The notes beneath the pieces were generated by a model. That model saw only the letters and a list, made by a program, of their open reading frames with translations, ran no database searches and was not told the DNA's origin. 63,600 nt of DNA. Source: Clostridia bacterium. Its GTDB lineage: Bacteria > Bacillota > Clostridia > Christensenellales > CAG-1252. The DNA lies in contig JAFPXC010000015.1 of the NCBI GenBank assembly GCA_017394805.1, forward strand, positions 1 through 63,600, read 5' to 3'. The position numbers were made by a program, and so were the translations under genes. How positions within the stretch are numbered: the stretch's first letter is position 1; each line of letters starts with the position of its first letter. Positions 864 through 63,459 of the stretch are shown piece after piece.

Positions 864-979
864 CCGACAAACGTCGGCTTTCTTCCGCGCTTAAACGTTT
901 AGGCACGGATTTTTCTCACAGTAAGGCCTTAGATTCCTCCCGTATGCACCGCATACGGATTTCTCCCGCACTTCGGGCG
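864..979. repeat. Hairpin-mosaic array 1 (GATTTCTCC-type linkers)
   Basis: This is a gene-free stretch between the convergent 3' ends of the TPR gene and recO. It holds short inverted repeats (CCGAC/GTCGG at 864-877, TAAGGCCTTA, CGTATG/CATACG) separated by linkers related to GGATTTCTCCC. It is one member of a family of arrays in this window. No coding sequence or promoter was seen in 791-982. Confidence 0.7.
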
Positions 980-2302: not shown

Positions 2303-2507
2303 CCATATCGCACCGCATAGCGGCATATCATTGCACTTGCGCCCACCAAGAACTACGGGGGCAATCCACGACCACAGGCCGATTCACGCATCAATCCCTA
2401 CCACATCCCGACGTATGTCGGATTTCTCCCGTGCGAACGCACGGATTTCTCCTTGCCATAGGAAAGATTTCACCCGCGTATCAACGCGGATTTCACCGAG
2501 CCTTGGC
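2303..2507. repeat. Hairpin-mosaic array 2
   Basis: This region lies between rnhA and the alpha-galactosidase. Near 2303-2329 is a dyad CCGC-ATA-GCGG flanked by ATATC motifs. From 2408 there is a regular string: CCGAC/GTCGG, CGTGC/GCACG, TTGCC/GGaAA, GCGT/ACGC, GCC/GGC, joined by GGATTTCTCC, GATTTCACCC and GGATTTCACC. The last linker supplies the TGA stop codon of the alpha-galactosidase gene at 2493-2495, so the array touches coding sequence. Confidence 0.75.
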
Positions 2508-16568: not shown

Positions 16569-16625
16569 CCGACGGACGTCGTATTTTACCCGAGCAACGC
16601 CTTGTTTCACCCACGGCTCTGCCGT
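16569..16625. repeat. Hairpin-mosaic array 3, inside the phage-like block
   Basis: CCGAC/GTCG, a weak GAGCAACGCCTTG unit and ACGGC/GCCGT are joined by TATTTTACCC and TTTCACCC linkers. The array starts five bases after the Sel1-gene stop. Its presence here shows that the host repeat family has invaded the phage-like cluster or arrived with the Sel1 gene. Confidence 0.6.
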
Positions 16626-16629
16626 GCGC

Positions 16630-18483
16630 CTACTCTTCGTCCGCGAAGTTTTCCCAATACGAGGCTTTGACCTCGTTTGCGTCCACGCCGTACCCCTCAC
16701 GGTAACATTGCGCCAAGAAAAGACAGGCCTCTTTATACCCCGTTTGGGCGGCCTTGGTCGCCCATTGAATACACGCTTTGGGGTCTTCCTTTTCTTCGTC
16801 GCCGCCCTCTTTCATGGCCAATGCCAACCGATATTGCGACGGGGCGTGCCCCAAAAGAGCGCATTGTTGCCACAGGCTCAACGCGCGTTTTTGATTTTTC
16901 TCGGTGCCTTCGCCTCTCCACAAAAGGCAAGCGAGGTTGTAGTCCGCGACCAAATTTCCTTTCGATTGCGCTCGCTCGAACCACAACGCCGCCATTTTCA
17001 CGTCTTTCGCCGTACCTTTTCCTTCGAGGTAGCACAGCCCCAGATTGACCATCGCTTGCGAATCCCCTTCGGCCGCCGCTTTTTTGTAGGCGTTCACCGC
17101 GCCCGCGTCGTCGCCCTCGGCCTGCAAACTCTCCCCCTCGGCGGTATTCGCGTTGGGGATAGTGCCTCCCGCGTTGCGCTTGTTCAACTCCGCCTTGGCG
17201 GGTTCGTACCCCAACGCTGCGGCGCGCGCCAATAGCACCGTGCCTTCTTTTTCGTTTTGCACGGTACCCCAGCCGTTCAACAAACACACCGCCAAGTGAT
17301 ACACGGCGGTGCGCTCGCCTTTTGCGGCCGCTTCGCGCAGGATACGCAATCCCTCTTGCGGATTTTGCACCACGCCTGCGCCGCGCACCAACGCAAAGCC
17401 GACGTACGCAGGTGCCGAAAAGTGCCCGCGTTGCATAGCCTCTTCAAACAATTTGAACGCTTCCGCCTCGTCCTTTTCGGTGCCGTTGCCCGTTGCCTTG
17501 CAAAGCCCCAGATTAAAGCTTCCGTCCGGGTTGCCTTTATCTCTCGCCGCTTGGAACAATTCGACCGAACGCGCGACGTTTTTCGGGCCGCCACGACCGT
17601 CCAGCATACACACGCCCAGATTATTCATTGCGCCGACGTGTCCGCTTTTTGCCGCACGCTCAAACCACAGCCTTGCCGAAGCGGGGTCGGGCTGTCCGCC
17701 CACGCCCTGCAACAGCAGATTGCCGTAGGTATTCTCGCCTTCGCTGTCGCCCGAAGCCGCGCTCTTATATATCCATTCCCTCGCCGCCTTGGTGTCGGGG
17801 CGCACGCCGATACCTTTTAGGTATCGCACGCCCAAGGGTTGGAAGGCTTTGACGTAACCTTTTTCGGCGGATTTTTGCAGATACTCCGTACTCTTGGCGG
17901 GATTTTTCTCGCCCGCCGAACCGTCCATATAGGTCATACTGAGGTTAAAATACGCCTCGGGCAATCCCTTCTCCGCGGCCTCTTCGAAGAGTTGCCGCGC
18001 TTTCGATCCGTTTCGTTCGACCAATCGGCCCGTCACGTACATCACGCCCAACTGATTCAATGCGTCCGGGAAGCCCGTTGCCGCGGCTTGCTCGATGACA
18101 GAAAGGCCTTCCATCGGCGTCGCGCCGTCCACTTTTCCCTCCATCATCATATTGCCGAGGCGCATCATCGCGGGCACGCTGCCCCTATCTACCGCCAGGC
18201 GCAAAAGGCGCATACCTTCTTGCTCGTCTTTCGCCACGCCCACGCCCAAATAGTGCAGGTTGGACAGGTGGAAATACGCGTCCACCGCGCCTCGTTCGGC
18301 GCTTTCCCGCAACAAGCGCACGCCTTCCGCCACGTTCCGCATCACGCCGCGCCCGTTCAGCACCAGCAACGCCTCTTGGCATTGACAGTCCGCGTCTTCC
18401 GGCGCACCTTCGTGAAAACATTGATACGCTTCGGCGAATTTTTGTTGCGCCAACAGCTTGATTCCCTTTTCGATTTGCAGCAT
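16630..18483 (-). CDS. Sel1-like repeat protein, cargo gene inside the phage head module
   Basis: This 617-aa protein is made of about 14 Sel1-type repeats of about 36 residues, e.g. AMMRLGNMMMEG, AYFNLSMTYMDGS, AMNNLGVCMLDGRGG and AMVNLGLCYLEGKGTAKD. The repeats run almost end to end. Sel1 solenoids are adaptor scaffolds for protein complexes; none of the phage structural families has them. No signal peptide or membrane segment. The start at ATG 18483 has AGAGGTG upstream. It has its own promoter (18555-18583) and terminator (16451-16472), so it is a separate transcription unit between the terminase and scaffold genes. This layout is that of a 'moron' (extra gene carried by a phage). A role in host modulation or competition is a guess. 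Confidence 0.9.
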   Translation of the reverse strand: MLQIEKGIKLLAQQKFAEAYQCFHEGAPEDADCQCQEALLVLNGRGVMRNVAEGVRLLRESAERGAVDAYFHLSNLHYLGVGVAKDEQEGMRLLRLAVDRGSVPAMMRLGNMMMEGKVDGATPMEGLSVIEQAAATGFPDALNQLGVMYVTGRLVERNGSKARQLFEEAAEKGLPEAYFNLSMTYMDGSAGEKNPAKSTEYLQKSAEKGYVKAFQPLGVRYLKGIGVRPDTKAAREWIYKSAASGDSEGENTYGNLLLQGVGGQPDPASARLWFERAAKSGHVGAMNNLGVCMLDGRGGPKNVARSVELFQAARDKGNPDGSFNLGLCKATGNGTEKDEAEAFKLFEEAMQRGHFSAPAYVGFALVRGAGVVQNPQEGLRILREAAAKGERTAVYHLAVCLLNGWGTVQNEKEGTVLLARAAALGYEPAKAELNKRNAGGTIPNANTAEGESLQAEGDDAGAVNAYKKAAAEGDSQAMVNLGLCYLEGKGTAKDVKMAALWFERAQSKGNLVADYNLACLLWRGEGTEKNQKRALSLWQQCALLGHAPSQYRLALAMKEGGDEEKEDPKACIQWATKAAQTGYKEACLFLAQCYREGYGVDANEVKASYWENFADEE

Positions 18484-27403: not shown

Positions 27404-27651
27404 TATTTAGTTGTCCTTTTTATTGTACACCATTTTCAAAAATTTGTCAAGCCTTTTTAGCGATTTTTTTATTAAAAAATTCAATTATTTTCGCCGCTTT
27501 CGTCCCATTATCCGTACATCATGTTGCCTTACTCCGCCTACGCACAACCGCCTCGCACCGCATAGCGATACCACGCAAATCCCCGTGGAATAATCTCGCG
27601 TGGGCACGGCCCAATATCACGTTCCCCTGCGATTCTCAATCTTTCCGCACC
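27404..27651. other. Gene-free region before array 4
   Basis: No supported coding sequence. 27410-27500 is AT-rich. A unit with CGCACCGCATAGCGATA at about 27554 and CCACG/CGTGG (27571-27588) belong to the same dispersed hairpin vocabulary seen near 2310 and 43512. Confidence 0.5.
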
Positions 27652-27754
27652 TTGCGCCAAAGCGCAAACTTCACGCAAGGTTTTGTCTTGAACTTCGCTT
27701 GCATAGCAAACTTCACTTCGCCGCAGGCGAAACTTCAAGCACGCTTTGACGTGC
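27652..27754. repeat. Hairpin-mosaic array 4 (ACTTCACT-type linkers)
   Basis: The string is TTGCGC/GCGCAA, CAAG/CTTG, TTGC/GCAA, TTCGCC/GGCGAA, GCAC/GTGC with linkers AACTTCAC, AACTTCGC, AACTTCAC and AACTTCAA. It lies between two divergent genes, upstream of the DivIVA-like gene. Confidence 0.75.
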
Positions 27755-33295: not shown

Positions 33296-33339
33296 CGTCA
33301 TTCCGATTTTATCGAGGGATCCCCCCAATAGGGGCACAC
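33296..33339. repeat. Dispersed repeat CGTCATTCCGAG, copy 1
   Basis: CGTCATTCCGATTTTATCGA and then GGGATCCC and GGGGCACAC. Related copies are at 48637 and 63271. It lies downstream of pncB. Confidence 0.65.
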
Positions 33340-33352
33340 ACTTCATACACAC

Positions 33353-33380
33353 AAAAAGCCCCCAACGTAGGGGGCTTTTT
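33353..33380. terminator. Bidirectional terminator between pncB and recA
   Basis: AAAAAGCCCCC / GGGGGCTTTTT with a 6-nt loop gives a T-run on both strands. It lies between the convergent pncB (+) and recA (-) genes. Confidence 0.9.
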
Positions 33381-33391
33381 CATACATTCGC

Positions 33392-33543
33392 TTCGCCATA
33401 GGCGAAACTCCACGCACGCTTCAGCGTGTCCGAATCCCAACGGACGTCGGATTTCTCCCAAGGCATTGTCTTGGATTTCTCCTTACGGTAGGCAAGATTT
33501 CTCCCGTATGCGGTGCATACGGATTTCACGCTGCCTTTGGCGG
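33392..33543. repeat. Hairpin-mosaic array 5 (both linker types)
   Basis: TTCGCC/GGCGAA, then ACTCCAC, GCACGCT/AGCGTG; further on the linkers change to GATTTCTCC: AAGGC/CTTGG, TTACG/GGCAA (imperfect), GTATG/CATAC, CTGCC/GGCGG. It ends directly at the recA stop codon (33544). The remaining part of 33230-33543 has no gene. Confidence 0.75.
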
Positions 33544-42542: not shown

Positions 42543-42611
42543 GGAGTTATTTCCAACTCTTCCCACAAATATACCCGACCCCCTCGCTTCAGGCCTCTTT
42601 CTTTCCGCAAC

Positions 42612-42708
42612 TCGCCATAGGCGAACTTCACTCAAGGCAACGCCTTGAACTTCACTGCGAAGCAACTTCACTTTCGCATAGCGAAAACTTCACTCACGCT
42701 TCGCCGTG
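42612..42708. repeat. Hairpin-mosaic array 6 (ACTTCACT linkers)
   Basis: The clearest example: TCGCC/GGCGA, CAAGGC/GCCTTG, GC/GC, TTCGC/GCGAA and CACG/CGTG, each followed by AACTTCACT or ACTTCACT. It lies between divergent genes, immediately upstream of the deacetylase promoter. Confidence 0.8.
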
Positions 42709-43532: not shown

Positions 43533-43656
43533 GTTGCCAAAGGCAACTATTTTCACTACATCCCCGACGAACGTCGGATTTCACCCGCTCGCGGTTCGAG
43601 CGGATTTCTCCTTGCCATAGGCAAGATTTCGCCCAAGGCAACGCCTTGGATTTCAT
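43533..43656. repeat. Hairpin-mosaic array 7 (GATTTCTCC linkers)
   Basis: GTTGCC/GGCAAC, CCGAC/GTCGG, GCTCG/CGAGC, TTGCC/GGCAA and AAGGC/GCCTT, joined by TATTTTCAC, ATTTCACCC, GGATTTCTCC, GATTTCGCCC and ending in GGATTTCAT directly before a 16-A tract. A further CGCATAGCG unit is at 43514. It lies between the convergent deacetylase and pnp genes. Confidence 0.8.
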
Positions 43657-43708
43657 AAAAAAAAAAAAAAAACGCGGACTGTCTTTTGGACAGCCCGCAT
43701 TTTTTATC
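43657..43708 (-). terminator. Strong terminator of pnp
   Basis: On the minus strand GCGGGCTGTC / GACAGTCCGC (one G-T pair) is followed by G and sixteen T residues (43657-43672). The plus strand also has a T-run (ATTTTTTAT), so it may act in both directions. Confidence 0.9.
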
Positions 43709-47838: not shown

Positions 47839-48509
47839 ACGCGATTGATCATATTGCGATGGGAGGCTCTGCCCACCGTACTCTTGGGGGTATATTCCGT
47901 CCAATCTTCTCCGTCGAATCTTGCGACGTGTCCGCCCAAAATAAAGGCCTCGGGCGGTGATTCCCGCCACAATTTTTGCCCGCTTTGGTACAATTCTTTC
48001 TCATTTCCCGTCGGCAGGTTGCTGTTGCCGCAGATCAAATCATTCATCACGGTATCGCCCGCCGCCAGATACGCGTCGTCCACGAGGTAGCACACACCGT
48101 CACGGGTATGCCCCGGCGTGTAGATTGCCCGCACGCGGAACGCGCCTATTTCGTAGGTCTTTTCCTCCACCTTCACGTCCACCGTCCAGGCGGGCGTGGG
48201 ATAGTCCACAAATCCCGCGCACCAACTTCCGTCCGCCAACATCCCTTCGGTGTAGGGCGAAGCGTACACTTTGGCATGGGGAAAAGCGGCTTTCAGTCGC
48301 GCGGCGTTGGCGGTATGGTCGAAATGGCTATGCGTCACCAATATCGCCCGCAAGGTTGCCCCCGCCGTTTTCAACACTTCGGTCAAGTCTTTCACGTCGG
48401 CCGACGCGTCCACCAGAAGCGCGTCCCCGTCCTTTGCCAACACGTAGCCCGTCTGCTCTCCCGCCGTATAATCTATCCCCGATATCGCATATACTTTCAC
48501 TTCACTCAT
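47835..48509 (-). CDS. MBL-fold metallo-hydrolase
   Basis: This 224-aa protein has the metallo-beta-lactamase motifs: HSHFDHTA (about 60-67), TPGHTRDGVCY with the third-site histidine, GDTVMND and a final GGH. It belongs to the glyoxalase II-like subgroup often encoded between dtd and hemZ in Clostridia; substrate unknown, hydroxyacylglutathione-type thioester hydrolysis is one possibility. Confidence 0.88.
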   Translation of the reverse strand: MSEVKVYAISGIDYTAGEQTGYVLAKDGDALLVDASADVKDLTEVLKTAGATLRAILVTHSHFDHTANAARLKAAFPHAKVYASPYTEGMLADGSWCAGFVDYPTPAWTVDVKVEEKTYEIGAFRVRAIYTPGHTRDGVCYLVDDAYLAAGDTVMNDLICGNSNLPTGNEKELYQSGQKLWRESPPEAFILGGHVARFDGEDWTEYTPKSTVGRASHRNMINRV

Positions 48510-48530
48510 CGTCGTCTTCTATCGTCATTG

Positions 48531-48548
48531 CACGCTATCAATAGCGTG
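48531..48548. repeat. 18-bp palindrome upstream of the MBL hydrolase gene
   Basis: CACGCTAT-CA-ATAGCGTG is perfect apart from the 2-bp centre. Six T follow on the plus strand, so it looks like a plus-strand terminator, although no plus-strand gene precedes it; it could instead be an operator of the MBL-hemZ unit. Confidence 0.5.
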
Positions 48549-48636
48549 ATTTTTTCTTTCACTTGCACCAATTGCCTATTCCAAACAGTACGCATAACGT
48601 AGCCTCGGCCAAAGAATCCCATCGCAATTAAATAAA

Positions 48637-48681
48637 CGTCATTCCGAGTTTATCGAGGAATCCCATTGTGAGAGGCACCCA
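48637..48681. repeat. Dispersed repeat CGTCATTCCGAG, copy 2
   Basis: CGTCATTCCGAGTTTATCGA and then GGAATCCCA and AGAGGCAC. It is followed 36 bases later by a hairpin array, as is copy 3 at 63271. Confidence 0.7.
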
Positions 48682-48716
48682 CCTTTCACTTTCACCAACA
48701 GGCTATTCACCACAAC

Positions 48717-48806
48717 TTGCGCCAAGCGCAAACTTCACTCAAGGCTACGCCTTGAACTTCACTTGCAACGCAAACTTCACTTTCGCATCGGCGAAAACTT
48801 CACTCA
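48717..48806. repeat. Hairpin-mosaic array 8 (ACTTCACT linkers)
   Basis: TTGCGC/GCGCAA, CAAGGC/GCCTTG, TGC/GCA and TTCGC/GCGAA joined by ACTTCACT or AACTTCACT. The final linker contains the stop codon of dtd (48804-48806). The rest of 48549-48803 has no gene. Confidence 0.8.
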
Positions 48807-49247
48807 CTTTGTCGTTTCGACAACGACGTTGATCGGCCCGTCCGCGATGCTCTCTATCTGCATATCCGCGCCAAAAACCCCACATTGCACGGGTTTTCCC
48901 GTATATTTCAACACGCTTTGTTTGAGGTAATCAAACAGGCTTTTGGCGTCGCCGAACGCCATCGCGCCCGAGAAAGAGGGGCGGCGCGAACTCGCGTCGC
49001 AATACAAGGTGAAATTGGGCACCCACAATACGTCTCCCGCCACGTCCAATACGGACTTATTCATCTTGCCCGCGTCGTCCTCGAAGATACGCATTTTATA
49101 CGCGCGGTCAACCGACCAATCCACCTCTTTGGTGCCGTCTTCGGGGCCGAATCCCACGTACACCAAGAGGCCGTTTTCTATCTTCCCCACCACTTCGCCG
49201 TCCACGCGGCAGGTGGCGTATTTTACTCGTTGTATCACTATTTTCAT
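48804..49247 (-). CDS. dtd: D-aminoacyl-tRNA deacylase
   Basis: Dtd removes D-amino acids (and glycine from tRNA-Ala) mischarged on tRNA. The 147-aa protein begins MKIVIQRVKYATCRVDGEVV and has the dimer-specific elements GFGPEDGTKEVDW, FTLYCDASSRRPSF and the Gly-cis-Pro loop ADGPINVVVE. The active-site SQFTL reads PNFTL here, a change in a usually invariant Ser-Gln pair. It overlaps the recJ stop (ATGA) and is translationally coupled to it. Confidence 0.93.
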   Translation of the reverse strand: MKIVIQRVKYATCRVDGEVVGKIENGLLVYVGFGPEDGTKEVDWSVDRAYKMRIFEDDAGKMNKSVLDVAGDVLWVPNFTLYCDASSRRPSFSGAMAFGDAKSLFDYLKQSVLKYTGKPVQCGVFGADMQIESIADGPINVVVETTK

Positions 49248-51700: not shown

Positions 51701-51757
51701 TTTCACCCGCTCGCGGTTCAAGCGGATTTCGCCCGTTCGGCAGAGCGGATTTTCCCC
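51701..51757. repeat. Hairpin-mosaic array 9 (GATTTCTCC-type, degenerate)
   Basis: TTTCACCC, GCTCG...AAGCG, GGATTTCGCCC, GTTCG...AGCG, GGATTTTCCCC. The stems are less perfect than elsewhere. It lies between secF and recJ on the same strand. Confidence 0.6.
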
Positions 51758-51781
51758 AAGTCCGTACCTTGCTCTCTCCAC

Positions 51782-51805
51782 AAAAAAAGCGGCCGCAGCC
51801 GCTTT
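51782..51805 (-). terminator. Terminator of secD-secF
   Basis: AAAGCGGC / GCCGCTTT with a 4-nt loop; on the minus strand a run of T follows. It is nine bases after the secF stop. Confidence 0.88.
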
Positions 51806-54930: not shown

Positions 54931-55103
54931 CACGTTATCGTTCGCCCCACGCTCGCTATCGCAAAGTTTTTGCGGCTTCGCTGTAACGCACCCTACAATT
55001 CCCTCTCGGTAGGGGCACTTATTTAGCACGTCGTATCGGCCGAAGCATAGCGAAGCGGAAATATCCCCTAAGCCGAGGCACGAACCCACGCCGCGCCCAT
55101 ATC
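54931..55103. other. Gene-free region with degenerate hairpin repeats
   Basis: No coding sequence supported. It contains scattered dyads (GCAAAG...TTTGC-type, CGGCCGAAGCATAGCGAAGCGG) and motifs of the mosaic family, but no regular linker. The neighbouring 55104-55180 is a regular array. Confidence 0.5.
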
Positions 55104-55180
55104 CCGCCATAGGCGGATTTCACCCGTGCGAACGCACGGATTTCTCCCAAGGCACAGCCTTGGATTTCTCCGCCGCAGGC
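55104..55180. repeat. Hairpin-mosaic array 10 (GATTTCTCC linkers)
   Basis: CCGCC/GGCGG, GTGCG/CGCAC, AAGGC/GCCTT and GCC/GGC joined by ATTTCACCC, GGATTTCTCCC and GGATTTCTCC. It abuts the yajC terminator. Confidence 0.78.
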
Positions 55181-55213
55181 AAAAAAACGCCCCTCTCCAT
55201 CGGGAAAGGGGCG
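55181..55213 (-). terminator. Terminator of yajC
   Basis: CGCCCCT / AGGGGCG (55188-55213) followed on the minus strand by seven T residues (55181-55187). Confidence 0.88.
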
Positions 55214-55228
55214 ATTTGTTTTCGTTTC

Positions 55229-63045: not shown

Positions 63046-63166
63046 CCTTTCCTCCAAAAAAAATCGGGTAATAGAAGTTACCCGAATCCAAACAATATAC
63101 CCCTTTTGGGAGAATGACTTGTTTAAGAAACCTTTTGCCGTAGGCGAAGGTGAGAACTTCTACTTC
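63043..63166 (-). ncRNA. Putative L20-type leader of infC-rpmI-rplT
   Basis: The about 120-nt transcript leader begins just after the promoter and ends at the ATT start. Early and late segments can form alternative pairs (anti-terminator versus terminator), as in the L20 leader of Bacillus. That L20 binds here is inferred from family knowledge. Confidence 0.6.
63056..63085 (-). terminator. Attenuator terminator in the infC leader
   Basis: On the minus strand TCGGGTAA / TTACCCGA with a 6-nt loop, followed by eight T residues and directly by GGAGG of infC. The loop and its 3' arm contain AACTTCTATT, which can pair (allowing one G-U) with AGTAGAAGTT at the start of the transcript (63155-63164 on the plus strand). 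Confidence 0.85.
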
Positions 63167-63172
63167 TCTCCT

Positions 63173-63312: not shown

Positions 63313-63357
63313 AGTCTCCTTTCCCCCTTGTCGGCAAGCGTCAATTTTCACCACGAC

Positions 63358-63441
63358 TTGCGAACGCAAACTTCACGCAAGGCTATGCCTTGCACTTCAC
63401 TTGCCATCGCAAACTTCACTTTCGCGTAGCGAAAACTCCAC
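63358..63441. repeat. Hairpin-mosaic array 11 (ACTTCACT linkers)
   Basis: TTGC/GCAA, GCAAGGC/GCCTTGC, TGC...GCA and TTCGC/GCGAA joined by ACTTCAC or AACTTCACT. No gene is present between 63202 and 63459. Confidence 0.78.
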
Positions 63442-63459
63442 CGAAAAAAAGGGCCATTC

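Follow-up and report, generated by a model that had tools for sequence, protein, structure and literature searches.

Dispersed arrays of variable hairpins joined by constant 7-nt linkers in gut Clostridia: candidate mobile DNA related to Rfam Gut-1

The stretch of DNA analysed here, called the window, comprises positions 1-63,600 of contig JAFPXC010000015.1 (GCA_017394805.1) from a Clostridia genome, G000. An array of the type under study lies at 42612..42708 (plus strand, pyrimidine orientation) and consists of four hairpins, each followed by ACTTCAC, with an imperfect hairpin at the end. CAAC stands just ahead of the first hairpin (42608..42611), and the four linkers occupy 42625..42631, 42649..42655, 42665..42671 and 42687..42693, the first of them within AACTTCACT at 42624-42632. 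A covariance model of this group of arrays (group A) was built from 27 arrays of G000, those starting at 42609, 48714 and 63355 included, and it matches the present array at 42609-42700 with 88.5 bits. Further group-A arrays are found on the plus strand at 27649..27745 (81.9 bits, outside the training set), 48714..48810 and 63355..63448. A group-A-like remnant at 33392..33435 (18.4 bits, match 33318-33420) stands ahead of a second kind of array (group B) at 33434..33536. Other group-B arrays lie, again on the plus strand, at 2405..2503, with GATTTCWCC linkers, at 43564..43649 and at 55104..55185 (match 55121-55226). Three more are degenerate, with approximate ends: 864..975, which keeps its first hairpin CCGAC..GTCGG, 16569..16640 (13.8 bits) and 51701..51790; the first and the last were recognized by eye and have no match to the group-A model. 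The arrays at 43564, 51701 and 55104 are located beside terminator-like hairpins.

At E<=1.5e-4 the model matches eight arrays of the window, four of them of group B, starting at 2405, 27649, 33434, 42609, 43608, 48714, 55121 and 63355. The hairpin-linker arrays of the initial annotation are indeed present where it placed them, eight of its 11 listed starts lying at or beside these matches. Predicted genes contain three of 69 linker clusters (these three were dropped). The stretches had been described as gene-free, but the array listed at 48717 directly abuts a stop codon: on the minus strand, the array at 48714..48810 comes immediately after the TGA of the gene called at 48804-49247. Separately, a sub-threshold match to the Rfam L20 leader (37 vs 58.7 bits) was noticed on the minus strand at 63050-63171.

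When hairpins were chained without assuming any linker, the unit emerged as a perfect hairpin plus a 7-nt linker, ACTTCAC in one group and ATTTC[AT]C in the other. The linkers of 8-10 nt described initially had taken in the outermost stem pair, which is near-constant within each group (T-A in most group-A units, C-G in most group-B units). A strict chain detector found five arrays in the window and none in each of 20 Markov-1 resamples; in the window together with 20 stretches of G000 it found 39, this sample of 323,779 bases having been picked around AACTTCACT matches and hence being enriched. AACTTCACT itself has 108 occurrences, against 10 for its reversed control. Among the 69 clusters of at least two linkers in the G000 sample, five linker groups are distinguished: A (AACTTCACT, 36 clusters), B (GATTTC[ATG]CC, 20 clusters), C (TAT[AC]TCGCA, 5 clusters), D (CAATTCACG, 6 clusters) and E (AATAT[CA]ACT, 2 clusters). 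Besides the two groups proposed at first, which correspond to A and B, at least three more exist in the same genome. By eye, a leader with CTATCYCTACCRCAAC at its end precedes many A, B and D arrays. Longer linkers were seen in L009 and L112 (L-numbers denote single loci or records), namely tatatcat/atgatatg of 8 nt and tacatcatg of 9 nt.

The number of linkers is strongly peaked. Outside G000 (foreign loci, from which the own-genome loci L017 and L035 and viral loci were left out), 261 arrays have two linkers in 41 cases, three in 64, four in 137, five in 11, six in 5, eight in 2 and ten in 1, so that 19 exceed four; in G000 (n=61) two are present in 9, three in 19, four in 30 and five in 3. 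A single cluster of 19 linkers was also counted, which failed the hairpin filter used for these numbers. Since decay removes linkers, we read the mode as four. Unit addition, which had been suggested as the way these arrays grow, is therefore not supported as the main rule, even though some arrays reach 10 linkers. Some long arrays (L116, L105 and L033) contain repeated, alternating hairpins, which suggests that units have been duplicated locally in certain lineages.

Several positional features recur. AAC precedes hairpin 1 in 45 of the 59 foreign four-linker arrays whose first hairpin is readable, and CAAC is the commonest array start in G000. Among hairpins 2-4 of foreign four-linker arrays, the third is strictly the shortest in 32/74, the second in 7 and the fourth in 4; in G000 the third is strictly the shortest in 16/22. 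The foreign arrays contain 406 distinct perfect hairpin units, the linkers being the constant part. Hairpins of group A are largely kept by position, so the partly conserved palindrome order reported initially is well kept there; it fails in group B, where 12 arrays have 12 different compositions and the same hairpin can be found at position 2, 3 or 4. An arm upstream of the array is complementary to the 3' arm of the last hairpin plus linker in 24/137 arrays, a count that included L017, L035 and viral loci, against 4.8 with shuffled upstreams. Arrays whose last linker is ATATAAC have it in 15/26 and those ending on ATAAAAC in 7/7, where within-group shuffles give 6.0 and 7.0, the sequences being alike. 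An alternative closing stem was thus rejected as a general feature and is confined to a subclass, in which the upstream arm would permit an alternative closed form.

The arrays are widespread. With the group-A model, 47 matches were obtained in G000 and matches in 15 of 61 genomes (G000 and 60 relatives, labelled in the style G001-G060; best 68 candidates per genome scored). A linker-only pattern, specifying three linkers and demanding no hairpin, was then scanned against one genome per species and returned at least 118 stretches, titles being available for 80. Among these best 80 of at least 118, titles name Clostridia or a member group in 75 and a ruminant digestive tract in 56 (by eye). Perfect hairpins with a stem of at least 4 fill 167 of their 212 inter-linker segments, vs 4.7 in shuffles; 60 of the 80 loci have at least two perfect hairpins and the other 20 do not. 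Arrays of at least three linkers are present in 96/118 loci among the matches listed. Carriage by phages or plasmids was considered and discarded: blastn of 42612-42708, the one array tried, found no match among 72,556 plasmid records and 50,697 phage records, and only one of 26 viral-contig pattern matches (L238) has hairpins. One record titled Akkermansia sp. MAG (L120, JAFQGF010000057.1) carries, in a span of 8 kb, seven arrays of 2-4 linkers, the linkers being ATATAAC and ATTTCAC; being assigned to another phylum, it may reflect cross-phylum occurrence or a binning error.

A named relative exists that the initial annotation, aware of no such family, had missed. The Rfam model Gut-1 (RF01706), 77 positions long, has three hairpins, each set between two of its four GUGAAAU-type linkers, and alignments at 43573-43658 and 42620-42695 show this plan. 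By cmscan, four arrays of the window match Gut-1 on the minus strand with 29.9-35.2 bits, under the 50-bit gathering cut-off; sub-threshold matches fall at 2417-2498, 43573-43658 and 55094-55172, on the group-B arrays described above. Among the matches listed, copies of G000 above the cut-off reach 58.7 and 56.9 bits. At E<=0.001 Gut-1 is matched in 21 of the 61 genomes, with up to 55 matches per genome, and above the cut-off in 13; one of 14 control genomes (E. coli) has a match, below the cut-off. The paper of Weinberg et al. (2010, PMC2864571) places Gut-1 in the human gut only and regards it as most likely an expressed ncRNA. Four of 18 records with ruminant-gut titles match above the cut-off (goat L131, L141 and L178; yak L142), so that Gut-1 is not confined to humans. 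Word searches of open-licence papers found neither later literature on Gut-1/RF01706 nor, by title and abstract start, similar repeats with the same plan. Gut-1 shares the linker-hairpin plan and the four-linker mode of our arrays, whereas these fall into several linker groups, are dispersed in many copies in each genome and occur in both transcription orientations. An exact match to a published family would, by the initial annotation, have refuted its reading; Gut-1 goes half of this way, sharing the plan but covering one linker variety and no more than its inner part.

To follow the arrays among relatives, six arrays of the window that retain two or more intact linkers were compared with gaps bracketed by orthologous genes in G001, G002, G004 and G005; the arrays at 864 and 2408 lacked such bracketing genes, those at 16569 and 51701 were too degenerate to count, and 63358 was outside the comparison. 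In 12 of 13 array-by-genome comparisons within the genus, one wide G004 gap counting for two arrays, the gap is shorter and free of clusters of two known linkers; in the remaining one, G002 at 43533, two group-C arrays stand in inverted orientation. The G005 gap at 43533, counted as empty, resembles a decayed array by eye, hence there, as in other gaps, an array may have been lost by the relative instead of gained in G000. Exact insertion junctions could not be read by alignment to G001, G002 and G005, whose flanks are too diverged (66-82% identity). In G001, about 3.9 kb of other sequence (G001:C38:6542-10409) is found between the orthologues of window 43422 and 43717.

Alike copies occupy different places in two relatives. 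In G003 a single core recurs 22 times over six stretches; three of these copies are visibly more diverged, and GTCATCCTGAG-type repeats surround most of the 22. In G005 one inverted array pair, flanked by long palindromes, exists in five copies, and all five stop abruptly on the right at the base of the last palindrome; the ends are clearly sharp on one side only, no target-site duplication is readable, and the copies on C90 and C115 share one left flank, a possible assembly join. Of the mobile hairpin element envisaged at first, the dispersal, the intact-array absence from most relatives' gaps and the unit-level variation are all observed; growth by unit addition as the main rule is the part that is not supported.

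Stems vary in a coordinated manner. In the alignment of 27 arrays, pairing reaches 91%, vs at most 46% in slid controls, and both-side changes occur in 8/23 pairs (50 cells vs 15.8 in shuffles, 0/500 as high); among five covariation measures, the count of further pair types stays at the level of the shuffles (351/500 as high). Pair 7-20 is CG in 14 and UA in 13 arrays, and unpaired in none. Both arms often change jointly, with hardly any intermediate, which is what unit exchange or template switching would produce; template switching is described in PMC8794818 as able to create and mend stems.

The loops show a clear polarity. Among the 406 distinct units, G..A loops on the pyrimidine strand (ACTTCAC-type linkers) account for 98/192 triloops and 112/187 tetraloops, against 3 and 0 on the purine strand (GTGAAAT-type linkers), and this polarity is the same whichever strand is transcribed (36:0 and 22:1); in G000 it is weak, 16 vs 3 of 71 tri- and tetraloops. 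GNRA and GNYA loops stand at 58:54 among distinct units and at 59:30 in the genome-collection subset, and since this ratio differs by set, loops alone do not decide between DNA and RNA. PMC8373063 reports that GNNA and GNAB loops are stable in DNA, analogous to GNRA in RNA. Folding energies proved equally unsuited as a DNA/RNA test: among 418 units the pyrimidine strand is favoured 161 vs 20 with DNA parameters and 135 vs 49 with RNA parameters, both sets leaning the same way by about 0.1-0.2 kcal/mol on average, and the difference is not clear in G000.

These observations bear on the reading of the arrays as a structured ncRNA or 3'-UTR element, whose four single-stranded linkers would bind a protein and whose dispersed copies would each serve their own gene. 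The covarying stems, the fit of the Gut-1 model, the frequent GNRA-type loops on the pyrimidine strand and the commoner G.T-type mismatches on that strand (32 vs 14, purine-strand counts turned over) are all consistent with it. Furthermore, arrays often face gene stops, in 59/87 neighbours within 400 bp on the linker side and 58/81 on the AAC side, and a number of them end in a long palindrome that could be a terminator. UUCG loops, on the other hand, are absent on either strand of the 406 distinct units, in relatives the same genes have no intact array next to them, and three arrays of the window stand, by eye, just beyond a terminator-like hairpin. Above all, orientation is even in co-directional gaps, the purine strand being sense in 28 and antisense in 26 foreign cases, and G000 (n=47) has 17 sense and 11 antisense arrays, 12 in convergent and 7 in divergent gaps, where its gaps at large are 50 co-directional, 16 convergent and 23 divergent. 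The structured RNA at gene ends suggested in the initial annotation thus finds no transcription-strand preference to support an RNA function, and we consider this explanation rather doubtful. The point weighed most is that orientation blind to transcription, combined with a kept loop polarity, argues for DNA.

Foreign arrays with both neighbours known (n=90) lie between convergent genes in 32 cases and divergent genes in 4, with 46 more lacking a neighbour, while gaps of at least 150 bp in the same foreign loci (n=198) are 108 co-directional, 42 convergent and 48 divergent. Divergent gaps are therefore depleted (4/90 arrays vs 48/198 gaps, p=2e-5), and inverted array pairs occur between convergent genes.

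In G000, orientation follows GC skew. The pyrimidine strand is opposite to the GC-skew sign in 58/66 clusters outside genes and in 54/56 at a skew above 0.05. After merging neighbours, 40/42 loci follow the skew (>0.05, p=4e-10), vs an agreement with the coding majority of 31/51, and where skew and coding disagree, 14/16 follow the skew. Third-codon skew balanced over coding strands agrees in 47/52, or 55/66 with one-strand cases kept, and the near-zero-skew stretches L081 and L095 show mixed orientation. Elsewhere such a bias was not seen (34/63 arrays in 53 records; 9/12 in G028, 5/9 in G016, 3/5 in G002 and 0/3 in G031). A replication-strand bias was thus rejected as a general rule and, being absent elsewhere, is a property of the arrays of this species and not of the family.

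Such a distribution could also be expected from a BIME-like chromosomal site under selection, for example a putative gyrase or nucleoid-protein site at the ends of transcription units, spread by recombination or gene conversion. The avoidance of divergent gaps, the inverted pairs between convergent genes, the strand orientation in G000 and the peaked linker number would all suit a site of this kind. Five linker groups in one genome and the alike copies of G003 and G005 speak instead for bursts, and the strand bias does not extend outside G000, which makes this explanation unlikely. Very improbable is a mere by-product of replication, in which template switching makes and mends palindromes and linker slippage adds or removes units with neither function nor dedicated enzyme: it would account for the joint change of both arms, with hardly any intermediates at pair 7-20, and for cassette reshuffling, while leaving unexplained why the linkers are constant, why their number peaks at four, why arrays start with AAC and why alike copies stand at different loci.

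We therefore favour, with a probability slightly above one half (about 0.55), the view that the arrays are dispersed non-autonomous mobile DNA with a near-fixed plan, AAC followed by four hairpins each carrying a 7-nt linker. The hairpins are predicted to fold when the DNA is single-stranded or extruded, and the linkers would be the sites read by a host or trans-acting enzyme. Template switching or unit exchange may rewrite both arms together, keeping the stems perfect, and the avoidance of divergent gaps could reflect insertion, or survival, where harm is least. If the arrays are mobile DNA, Gut-1 would represent, for one variety of the element, its four-linker core and not an RNA gene; the arrays, real and widespread, are known in part under another name and probably misfiled there as RNA.

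The usual routes of mobilization were searched for. At E<=0.001, Y1 transposases (PF01797) are absent from G000 and from the array-rich G002, G005, G016, G018, G028 and G031, and G003, equally rich in arrays, has one; mobilization of the RAYT/IS200 type was thus set aside for G000. Neither RVT_1 nor the IS110-type Transposase_20 has a match in the draft genomes G000, G002 and G005, so reverse transcriptase and IS110-type transposase were likewise rejected as mobilisers in G000. Transposase_20 is absent from all six genomes of the window's genus; one match was observed in each of 10 genomes of a related genus (G009-G014, G016-G019). A linked mobiliser gene was discarded as well, since no gene family recurs beside the arrays beyond ABC-transporter-like proteins (10/97 loci).

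The arrays can be compared with known repeats. CRISPRs have direct repeats of about 23-47 nt and unique spacers and lie beside cas genes; the arrays share with them a regular short constant sequence between variable ones, but here only 7-9 nt are constant, and a hairpin takes the place of the unique spacer. REPs avoid divergent gaps, as do our arrays, which resemble REPs, BIMEs and REPINs in being extragenic, dispersed, palindromic and mosaic. The arrays resemble BIMEs in genomic position, in their many dispersed extragenic copies and in their mosaic with GTCATCCTGAG-type repeats in G003. In REPs, however, the palindrome is conserved, whereas here variable palindromes alternate with a constant linker. 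The early verdict that the arrays are neither CRISPR-like nor a REP of one sequence is thus upheld. Integron attC sites carry RYYYAAC / GTTRRRY core boxes and are served by an integron integrase; the AAC before hairpin 1 is a loose resemblance only, and GTTG is found within 55 nt downstream of the array in 15/141. MITEs are similarly short, non-coding and present in many copies, and the G005 copies end in long palindromes; no common terminal inverted repeats or target-site duplication could be discerned with flanks so diverged, and no parent transposon was found. REPINs are proposed (PMC3116915) to move by the Y1 (RAYT) transposase, and differ from the arrays in that G000 has no Y1 match.

A more specific version of the mobile-DNA reading, which we put forward tentatively, is that the arrays invert the logic of REPs and CRISPRs, as a four-linker ladder with fixed 7-nt linkers and free hairpins. 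An enzyme outside the Y1, reverse-transcriptase and IS110 routes might copy the folded strand, with a strong replication-strand preference in this species, and several linker dialects would coexist per genome, Gut-1 being one of them. Should the arrays be mobile DNA, an RNA family candidate of 2010 would become a DNA repeat and the annotation of gut-metagenome matches would change. The constant linker, variable hairpin and preferred unit number amount to a design rule open to testing. That one species has so sharp a replication-strand bias, while three usual enzyme types gave no match, points to a new mobiliser in gut Clostridia.

A second dispersed repeat, CGTCATTCCGAG..CGAGGAATCCC, was also observed in G000, where it either precedes many arrays on the upstream side or surrounds them; the window has it at 48480-48720 and 33350-33400. 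Its counterpart in G003, GTCATCCTGAG..GGATCTCAT, is likewise located around arrays (L099).
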